Source: Emcibacter sp. SYSU 3D8
GTDB lineage: Bacteria > Pseudomonadota > Alphaproteobacteria > SMXS01
Assembly: GCF_039655875.1 (NCBI RefSeq)
Contig: NZ_JBBYXK010000001.1
Location: 248,001 to 312,000 of the forward strand
Direction: 5' to 3'
Length of the DNA: 64,000 nucleotides
The translations under genes and the position numbers were made by a program. The notes under the pieces were generated by a model that had not been told where the DNA came from, ran no database searches, and saw only the letters and a list, made by a program, of their open reading frames with translations. The first letter of the stretch is position 1. Each line of letters starts with the position of its first letter. Shown here piece by piece: positions 1 to 60,588 of this stretch.

Positions 1-1671
<1,671 letters not shown>

Positions 1672-25013: not shown

Positions 25014-25038
25014 AAAAAGAAAGGCGGCTTGCGCCGCC
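25014..25038 (-). terminator. intrinsic terminator of the rpsF-rpsR-rplI operon
   Basis: Read on the minus strand, a GGCGGC-GCAA-GCCGCC hairpin is followed by TTTCTTTTT. It lies 80 bp after the rplI stop, so it is well placed to end the ribosomal protein operon and to separate it from dnaB. Confidence 0.85.
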
Positions 25039-58283: not shown

Positions 58284-60059
58284 CTATTTGCCAGTGGACC
58301 ACCAGGTTTCCGGGGCATAGCCGGTCAGCGGCGTGACGGCCGGCATGGCGATCCTGGTCCAGTATGCGACCCGGTCACCCTTGAGATGATAGAGCGGGAT
58401 CACGTAGACGCCGGCGCGCAGCACCCGGTCGAGCAGCCTCGTGGCCGTCACCAGCCCGGCCCGAGTCCGCGCGGCGGTGATCCGCTGCACCAGCCTGTCG
58501 ATCAGGGGGTCCTTCACGCCCATATAGTTGCGCGTTCCCGGGCTGTCGGCAGCTGCCACACCCCAATAGAATGCCTGTTCGTTGCCGGGTGACAATGACT
58601 GGCCCCAGAAATAGACCGCCATATCGAAATCGTAGGTGGTCATCCGCTCCTGGTATTGGGCGCTATCAACCAACCGGGCGTCGACATGGATGCCCAGGCG
58701 CTCAAGGTCGCGGGCATATTGCTGGGCCACCCGGAGATTGGCGGGATCATCGAGCATGATCTCGAACGTGAACGGCATGCCATCCTGCCCCGTCAGCACC
58801 CCGTTCACGACCTTGTAGCCCAGCGCGTCGAATGCCGTCTTGGCCTTGGCGAGATTGACCCGTCCTCCATCGTCAGGCCCCGACACGGGCGGCGGAGTGA
58901 GTGGCCCGCGCAGGGCAGGGTGGGACGATGCGCCCAGTTCGGCCGCCAGCGCCAGTTCGTCCTTGCCGGGCGTGAGCGGGGCGGACAATTCGGAATTGTC
59001 GAACACGCCCCGGGTCCGTGAATAGGCGCCATAGAACAGCTTCTGGTTCAGCCATTCAAAATTGAAGGCCTCGACCAGCGCCGCCCGCACCCTGATATCG
59101 CGGAACATCGGCCGTCTGGTATTGAACACCAGGCCGTTCAGCCCGGCGGGCAGGCCGTTGGGCAGCACCCGTTTGACAATCCGGCCATCGCGCAATGCCT
59201 TGCTGTCATAAGCGCTTGCCCATTTGCGCGGGCTGCTTTCGGCCCGGAAGTCCACCGAACCTGCCTTGAAGGCTTCCAACGCCATGTCGTCGTCGCGAAA
59301 ATAGTCGTAGCGGACTTCGTCGAAATTAAACCGCCCCCGGTTGATGGGCAGATCGCGCCCCCAATAGCCCGGATCACGGCGATAGGTGATGCTCCGGCCC
59401 GGACTGACGGATTCAACCCGGTAAGGGCCGGTACCCGGGATCACGTCGAGACTCGGACGATCGAACTGCCGGTTGTCGAACCAGTGCCGGGGAAGCACCG
59501 GCAGCAATCCAAGGATCAGCGGCAATTCGCGGTCGGCGGACGCGCCGAAAGTGAACTTCACGCCGCGCGGGCCGACACGGTCAATCCTGGTGACCTGCGA
59601 ATAATAGGTGTGATGGTTGGGGCGGCCATGATCGCGCAATGTTTCCAGGGAAAAGATCACGTCGTCGACCGTCACCGGCTTGCCGTCGTGAAACCGCGCC
59701 TCGGGCCGCAGGCGAAAGATCACCCAGGAGCGGTCGTCAGGCACCTCGATCGATTCGGCAACCAGCCCATAGAGTGTGAACGGTTCGTCGAGGCCGCGCG
59801 TCATCAGCGTATCGAATACCAGCGAGACGCCGTCAGCCCGATTGCCCCGGATAATGAACGGGTTGAGGCTGTCGAACGAACCGGCCCTGGACAGCACCAA
59901 CCGCCCGCCCTTGGGCGCCGCCGGATTGACATAGTCGGTGTGCTCGAAACCCGCGCTGTATTTGGGCGCGCCATGCATGGCGATTCCGTGCATGGGACCG
60001 GCTGCAATGGCCGGCGTGACGATCAGCAATGACAGGAGCACGAGCAACCGAAGGGCCAT
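58284..60059 (-). CDS. extracellular solute-binding protein, family 5 (YejA-like peptide binder)
   Basis: A 591-residue periplasmic binding protein for peptide-type ABC importers. A signal peptide (MALRLLVLLSLLIVTPAIAA) is followed by 'HGIAMHGAPKYSAGFEHTDY', then 'RAGSFDSLNPFIIRG', typical of the YejA branch that imports oligopeptides and microcin C. No permease or ATPase gene is adjacent, so it is an orphan receptor here. An intrinsic terminator and a structured leader RNA lie just upstream (60.1-60.25 kb), suggesting control of its transcription. A DUF4136 lipoprotein gene follows 38 bp later. Confidence 0.88.
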   Translation of the reverse strand: MALRLLVLLSLLIVTPAIAAGPMHGIAMHGAPKYSAGFEHTDYVNPAAPKGGRLVLSRAGSFDSLNPFIIRGNRADGVSLVFDTLMTRGLDEPFTLYGLVAESIEVPDDRSWVIFRLRPEARFHDGKPVTVDDVIFSLETLRDHGRPNHHTYYSQVTRIDRVGPRGVKFTFGASADRELPLILGLLPVLPRHWFDNRQFDRPSLDVIPGTGPYRVESVSPGRSITYRRDPGYWGRDLPINRGRFNFDEVRYDYFRDDDMALEAFKAGSVDFRAESSPRKWASAYDSKALRDGRIVKRVLPNGLPAGLNGLVFNTRRPMFRDIRVRAALVEAFNFEWLNQKLFYGAYSRTRGVFDNSELSAPLTPGKDELALAAELGASSHPALRGPLTPPPVSGPDDGGRVNLAKAKTAFDALGYKVVNGVLTGQDGMPFTFEIMLDDPANLRVAQQYARDLERLGIHVDARLVDSAQYQERMTTYDFDMAVYFWGQSLSPGNEQAFYWGVAAADSPGTRNYMGVKDPLIDRLVQRITAARTRAGLVTATRLLDRVLRAGVYVIPLYHLKGDRVAYWTRIAMPAVTPLTGYAPETWWSTGK

Positions 60060-60107
60060 GGACCAGACTATGGCGCGGCGCTGCCTCGTGCGTAAAGCGC
60101 GGCACTC

Positions 60108-60133
60108 AAAAAAATGGGCGCCATCGGCGCCCA
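60108..60133 (-). terminator. orphan intrinsic terminator upstream of the solute-binding protein gene
   Basis: On the minus strand, TGGGCGCC-GAT-GGCGCCCA (8-bp perfect stem, 60133-60115) is followed by seven T. It lies 48 bp upstream of the solute-binding protein start. There is no minus-strand gene between it and the right-hand genes, which all run on the plus strand. It must therefore end a short RNA that starts in the 60.13-60.31 kb gap. Confidence 0.75.
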
Positions 60134-60252
60134 GTCTGGAGGAATGCGGTCGAATCCCGAGCGGCAGGTCAAATGGGGTTCAAGCGCTCTGGCGCATGAT
60201 GTATGAACCTCTCAGCCGCTGCCTTCGGCTCCTGAAATCAATGGTTGCATGC
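60134..60252 (-). ncRNA. candidate structured small RNA or leader RNA
   Basis: On the minus strand two mutually exclusive folds are visible just before the terminator. Fold 1 pairs 60248-60252 with 60194-60198 (CATGC/GCATG), 60243-60246 with 60206-60209 (GGTT/AACC), and 60232-60236 with 60211-60215. Fold 2 pairs 60204-60209 with 60177-60182 (TGAACC/GGTTCA), 60192-60195 with 60184-60187 (GCGC hairpin), and 60215-60220 with 60160-60165 (GCCGCT/AGCGGC). Together with the terminator this resembles a small RNA gene or a riboswitch/attenuator leader of the solute-binding protein gene. No known riboswitch class matched. Confidence 0.3.
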
Positions 60253-60315
60253 TGACCGCCGACTTGGGCAGGATTTGGGCGAACAGTTTGCTTCCGCGCG
60301 AGAATGGGGAGAATC

Positions 60316-60588
60316 ATGCAGGAGATTCCTGACACCGTCCGTCCGTACCAGAAGACGCAGGTCTACACCGACAAGACCACGCCCGGCATGATGAAGAACG
60401 ACCATCGCGTACGCTCTGGTGTCTGGGCCAAGATCGTCGTCCAGAAGGGCGAGGTGGTCTACGAAATCCCCGAACGGAACGAACAGGTTACGGTAACCGC
60501 CGAGGCGCCGGCCGTGATCGAGCCGGTGGTGATGCACCGCATCCTGCCGCAGGCCGGTTCGCGCTTCTACCTGGAGTATTACCGCTAG
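60316..60588 (+). CDS. DUF1971 family protein
   Basis: A 90-residue cupin-like protein: 'IPDTVRPYQKTQVYTDKTTP', 'MMKNDHRVRSGVWAKIVVQK', 'IEPVVMHRILPQAGSRFYLE' and the final F-Y-L-E-Y-Y-R follow the DUF1971 pattern. In E. coli the same domain is found in YeaR and at the end of some TehB proteins (tellurite/nitrate-related); the exact role is not known. The histidines in 'NDHRV' and 'VMHRI' could bind metal. GGGGAGA precedes the ATG at 60316. It runs opposite to the orphan leader RNA. Confidence 0.78.
   Translation: MQEIPDTVRPYQKTQVYTDKTTPGMMKNDHRVRSGVWAKIVVQKGEVVYEIPERNEQVTVTAEAPAVIEPVVMHRILPQAGSRFYLEYYR

Follow-up and report, generated by a model that had tools for sequence, protein, structure and literature searches.

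A conserved minus-strand terminator with an adjoining anti-Shine-Dalgarno motif, between divergent SBP_bac_5 and DUF1971 genes, as the possible 3′ end of an alpha-r8-like small RNA

Small RNAs of the alpha-r8 family, including MmgR of Sinorhizobium meliloti and SisA-D of Caulobacter crescentus (Rfam RF00519, suhB), carry an anti-Shine-Dalgarno motif, followed by A[AG]ACUUGGGC and then by an intrinsic terminator, an arrangement common to the locus described here. Siblings in this family are known to occur in multiple copies at separate loci with unrelated promoters, an N-formylglutamate amidohydrolase gene is a reported neighbour, and pairing of SisA with the ribosome-binding sites of its targets lowers translation (PMC12559287). 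In AbcR1/2 (alpha-r15) and NfeR1 (alpha-r14) of rhizobia, unpaired CU-rich anti-Shine-Dalgarno motifs repress translation, often that of ABC-transporter binding proteins (PMC8844928, PMC10746234); AbcR1/2 lower translation by pairing with target ribosome-binding sites (PMC8844928).

The locus lies in an intergenic gap of the window (the whole 64-kb stretch of DNA analysed, by whose positions all features are numbered) and comprises the following features:

58284-60059, minus strand: gene for an SBP_bac_5 extracellular solute-binding (peptide-binding) protein, SBP (Pfam PF00496, E 3.7e-68), ATG at 60059
60060-60303: intergenic gap between divergent genes, the SBP_bac_5 gene on one side and the DUF1971 gene on the other
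60067-60096, minus strand: SBP promoter-like site, TTTACG (60096-60091), 18 bp, CATAGT (60072-60067), 7 nt before the ATG
60108-60133, minus strand: intrinsic terminator, a perfect 8-bp stem (60133-60115) and T7 (60114-60108)
60133-60145, minus strand: conserved 13-nt motif ATTCCTCCAGACT abutting the terminator on its 5′ side, identical in all five genus members with the terminator
60144-60138, minus strand: anti-Shine-Dalgarno UUCCUCC, part of ATTCCTCCAGACT, resembling the alpha-r8 3′ module
60146-60233, minus strand: presumed small-RNA body (putative extent), poorly conserved in sequence and structure
60234-60281: 48-bp element immediately ahead of the DUF1971 gene, strongly constrained at the DNA level (of 48 columns in a six-genome comparison, 34 are invariant)
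60245-60250 and 60269-60274, plus strand: possible DUF1971 promoter within the 48-bp element, TTGCAT, 18 bp, CAGGAT
60304-60588, plus strand: gene for a DUF1971 protein (Pfam PF09313, E 4.8e-16)

As the earlier note on this DNA had it, no minus-strand gene precedes the terminator, the neighbours being the two divergent genes. For the DUF1971 gene, a start at ATG 60316, which is preceded by GGGGA, appears more likely than one at 60304, judging also from the alignment of starts across genomes. A tRNA/tmRNA search found none, and a literature search on DUF1971 yielded nothing useful. The search of the order took in ten genomes, seven of which belong to one genus, in addition to the match lines of the window itself; the locus could be put into an alignment for six genus members, and three further family members were compared (handles such as G000 denote genomes).

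On the minus strand the terminator reads TGGGCGCC-GAT-GGCGCCCA and then T7, and it ends 48 bp before the SBP start codon. Its GC-rich hairpin, folded alone, reaches -15.4 kcal/mol (z -3.7), and it is the sole perfect stem of at least 8 bp with at least 6 T in the following 8 positions in the whole window, where 0.1 would be expected from a first-order Markov simulation. The 8-bp hairpin with seven T that had been described before the SBP gene is thus borne out. Terminator and T tract are present in 5 of the 6 same-genus genomes holding the locus (G000, G001, G003, G004 and G006) and in G007 from another genus, that is in six species of two genera, and are absent from G002 of the same genus and from G008 and G009, in which the gap is only about 60-70 bp. 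A single C to T substitution in the G006 stem gives a U-G pair in the minus-strand RNA and an A-C mismatch in the plus-strand RNA. Because this substitution pairs only on the minus strand, and because the T run is conserved on that strand only, the terminator is assigned to the minus strand. The stem is otherwise nearly invariant among relatives and therefore provides little covariation evidence; the stem pair counts do not constitute covariation support, their alignment having included an unrelated terminator-like site at window position 25014.

To which transcript the terminator belongs is suggested by the SBP promoter-like site. In 9/9 genomes, going by the printed sequences, the SBP start codon is preceded at 6-7 nt by a TTTACG-18-CATAGT-like pair, whose -35 is weaker in G009. 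This pair ranks first or shares first place among promoter-like pairs of that strand in the five scanned gaps, and it persists in the three genomes without the terminator. In G007, moreover, a glycosyltransferase gene (L062 1126-155, minus strand) lies between the terminator and the SBP gene. Since the promoter-like site lies between the terminator and the gene and is still present in genomes lacking the terminator, and since a gene intervenes in G007, the terminator most likely belongs to the unit upstream of it and not to an SBP leader. In a riboswitch or attenuator, the terminator forms part of the 5′ leader of the regulated gene, whereas here the predicted promoter intervenes in nine genomes. 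The SBP mRNAs look near-leaderless in all nine family genomes, only 6-7 nt separating a -10-like hexamer from the ATG. We also observed that AGTCTGG in the promoter-like site (60063-60072, minus strand) is a perfect complement of CCAGACT, which precedes the terminator (60132-60138, minus strand), in all genus members having both, a complementarity not kept in G007 and possibly due to chance.

Upstream of the hairpin, two mutually exclusive sets of helices had been proposed. Such pairings can be drawn, but the 203-nt region folds no better than its shuffles (z -0.67; -1.54 for a 127-nt version), and the pairings are not conserved. Consensus folding of a five-species alignment gave no conserved structure apart from the terminator, with an unfavourable covariation term of +2.3; most upstream pairs that vary in the alignment are broken, and the hairpins predicted upstream of the motif differ from species to species, none being conserved. 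Compared with shuffled sequence, the candidate RNA has only a slight folding advantage in the genus (z about -0.5 to -2.1). No riboswitch class was matched, as in the earlier reading, when Rfam was scanned at gathering and relaxed thresholds; the only hits were sub-threshold ones to small RNAs.

Conserved along with the terminator is the sequence abutting its stem. The anti-Shine-Dalgarno motif AUUCCUCCAGACU shows no variation among the five terminator-bearing genus members; in predicted folds it is unpaired in the short 42-nt version of G000, largely unpaired in the longer versions of G001, G004 and G006, and partly paired in G003 and in the 127-nt version of G000. G002 has lost the module. 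Together with the terminator, UUCCUCC-AGACUUGGGC closely resembles the 3′ module of the alpha-r8 small RNAs (MmgR, SisA-D), which likewise end in a rho-independent terminator. This resemblance was tested after being noticed. In G003 and G006 the module reads UUCCUCCAGACUUGGGC and attains a motif score of 13, for which the chance is about 2.6e-7 per position; the score of 10 in the window (about 6.5e-6 per position) is matched elsewhere in the 64 kb and so is not exceptional alone. The strength of the resemblance lies in the G003 and G006 orthologs and in the fixed place of the motif beside the terminator.

The genomes of the order also carry the standard alpha-r8 gene. It scores over the cut-off in all ten (53.7-65.5 bits), its 3′ module there being UUUCCUCCCUAAACUUGGGCC plus terminator, and in G000 (G000:C2:671530-671608, 64.3 bits) it adjoins an N-formylglutamate amidohydrolase gene. 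The pattern CCTCC-N0-3-ARACTTGGGC found the alpha-r8 gene in 10/10 genomes and, in addition, two alpha-r8-like siblings (one in G001 and the second G007 gene), the SBP/DUF1971 locus in G003 and G006, and two other places in G007. The latter, which carry CCTCCCCAAACTTGGGC (L150 about 390-480, minus strand, and L151 about 420-490, plus strand) and were judged by eye, are perhaps more alpha-r8-like siblings; at the L150 place a hairpin and a T-rich tail follow CCTCCCCAAACTTGGGC. A further locus in G004, G001, G002 and G005, as well as the second over-cut-off gene in G007, carries CUCCCUAAACUUGGGCC.

Four species, the window copy being left out, supplied a covariance model for the 3′ module; run over the order, this model recovered the window copy (41.5 bits) and that of G007 (32.6 bits). 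Orthologs aside, the best full-length matches of the model fell in a second locus, seen in G006, G000, G002, G004 and, with a weaker match, G001. At this second locus a hairpin whose loop is of the CCCUCCC type is followed by ACUCCCCCAGACUUGG and a terminator, and the locus has the same CCAGACUUGG-terminator end as the SBP/DUF1971 locus. Its copies are alpha-r8-like, with 20.9-31.6 bits against Rfam suhB/MmgR, and one of them folds at z -6.7. In five genomes it has the look of an unannotated small-RNA gene in its own right, combining an anti-Shine-Dalgarno loop with a CUCCCCC motif and a terminator (L095 about 1390-1549, plus strand, corresponding to G000:C2:723306-723354 and upstream; L094, L090, L096 and L147), and is preceded by TTAA-N7-TTAA, which resembles a CtrA site.

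We favour, with a probability of roughly 55%, the view that the terminator is the 3′ end of a trans-acting anti-Shine-Dalgarno small RNA, probably a diverged alpha-r8-like sibling. A stand-alone small RNA had been held at least as likely as a leader in the earlier note, and it is supported by the conserved motif with its terminator, by the likeness to alpha-r8 and by retention away from the SBP gene. The minus-strand transcript would begin between the conserved 48-bp element and the motif and end at 60108, and the UUCCUCC seed, adjoining the U-tailed terminator, would pair with the ribosome-binding sites of target mRNAs and reduce their translation. Hfq binds U-tailed terminators of this type. 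On the model of MmgR, SisA and AbcR, the RNA would work in trans and probably employ Hfq. A role in trans is more likely than one on the neighbouring SBP gene, because the SBP mRNA is predicted to be leaderless and would therefore offer no Shine-Dalgarno target. Against the small RNA speak its unconserved body, the loss of the module in G002, the lack of a promoter common to the species in a sigma-70-type scan of five gaps, and the weak folding of the candidate RNA, unlike that of siblings (z -4.7 and -6.7).

The invariant columns of the 48-bp element include TTGGGCAGGATTTGG, it contains two TTGGGC repeats 11 bp apart, and 12 of its 16 putative third codon positions are invariant, as against 25% in the adjoining DUF1971 gene. 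A class-wide pattern search found it only in the window's genus. A small plus-strand peptide (EINGCMLTADLGRIWA) was considered and rejected: because start codons and frames are unconserved and third positions unusually invariant, the stretch was treated as a DNA element. It is possibly the DUF1971 promoter with a site for a regulator, and it may control the minus-strand RNA too. More tentatively, one could picture a lineage-specific anti-Shine-Dalgarno small RNA that split from alpha-r8, kept the seed-terminator module while its 5′ body evolved freely, and came to share a divergent control element with the DUF1971 gene, which would give it its own expression condition within a SisA-D-like network of siblings.

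Another explanation would be that the terminator is an insulator which halts antisense or pervasive minus-strand transcription coming from the DUF1971 side before it reaches the SBP promoter, with no functional small RNA involved. Conservation of terminator and T run, but not of the body, and the failure to find a small-RNA promoter would fit such a role. However, it leaves unexplained both the invariant 13-nt anti-Shine-Dalgarno motif before the stem and its match to alpha-r8-like ends, and G007 retains the terminator at a distance from the SBP promoter; we regard it as unlikely. Less probable still is that the locus is decaying, being either a former alpha-r8-like gene that lost its promoter and body in the genus or, where G007 is concerned, a small mRNA encoding a hydrophobic peptide of 24 residues, of which only the 3′ module is left. 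The unconserved body, the missing module in G002 and the G007 ORF VSAYVLAFVSAAGIIGSVLWLLST before the terminator agree with decay, whereas an invariant 13-nt motif, stem and T run in five species, in which only 25% of DUF1971 third codon positions are invariant, do not. There is little to recommend a plus-strand reading, in which the hairpin and GGAGGAAT would form a structured leader of the DUF1971 mRNA that includes a ribosome-binding site for a short leader peptide: GGAGGAAT is a good plus-strand Shine-Dalgarno sequence and is followed by short ORFs in some species, but start codons and frames vary between species, the G006 stem would contain a mismatch as plus-strand RNA, and it is the minus strand that has the conserved T run. 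Finally, the premature-termination leader (riboswitch or attenuator) of the SBP gene that the earlier note put forward is contradicted and most improbable, for although the terminator stands on that gene's strand, 48 bp ahead of it, and alternative pairings can be drawn, the SBP promoter-like site stands between it and the gene in 9/9 genomes, it is missing in G002, G008 and G009 and distant from the gene in G007, and neither a conserved upstream fold, nor terminator/anti-terminator pairing, nor an Rfam riboswitch was found. An isolated terminator before a gene should not be taken for a riboswitch.

Returning to the small RNA, its recognition places an unannotated candidate in a little-studied alphaproteobacterial order, whose genomes carry further alpha-r8-like loci besides the standard alpha-r8 gene. 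If it is real, the question of sibling small RNAs raised by SisA-D in Caulobacter becomes testable in another lineage.

Among known small RNAs other than alpha-r8, AbcR1/2 and NfeR1 have three stem-loops and two or three anti-Shine-Dalgarno motifs, whereas the putative RNA of this locus has one motif, and the SBP mRNA beside it is predicted to be leaderless and so to lack a Shine-Dalgarno site. Full-length matches to BjrC1505 (RF02356) in G007 (31.6 bits, E 2e-4, cut-off 50) and to Atu_C4 (RF02499) in the window (20.7 bits, E 0.06, cut-off 80) both end exactly at the terminator, are sub-threshold, and consist largely of CUCC and the terminator; across the order BjrC1505 gave sub-threshold matches only, G007 being the best. 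The stretch matched in G007 (L062:1245-1319, minus strand) is also that of the ORF for the 24-residue peptide, which lies upstream of the terminator with GGGAG before it. As for alpha-r8 itself, the locus does not carry the single-stranded 10-mer UUUCCUCCCU which in that family stands next to the terminator on the 5′ side, and by means of which these Hfq-binding RNAs repress translation: its core is AUUCCUCCAG, which matches at 7/10 positions through the seven contiguous bases UUCCUCC and whose flanks depart from those of the 10-mer in all five genus members. The spacing from seed to AGACUU is two bases shorter than in alpha-r8, there is no conserved 5′ hairpin, the hairpins predicted where alpha-r8 has a weak one, immediately before its 10-mer, vary with the species, and the neighbours are SBP_bac_5 and DUF1971 genes instead of the FGase gene. 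With Rfam suhB (cut-off 41 bits) the orthologs of the locus score at noise level (15.8-21.3 bits), and the window copy is unlisted. Because of the Rfam cut-off, the noise-level scores and the 7/10 core, we do not file it as a member of the family; its RNA would work like an anti-Shine-Dalgarno small RNA, and 'alpha-r8-like' is the strongest statement justified.
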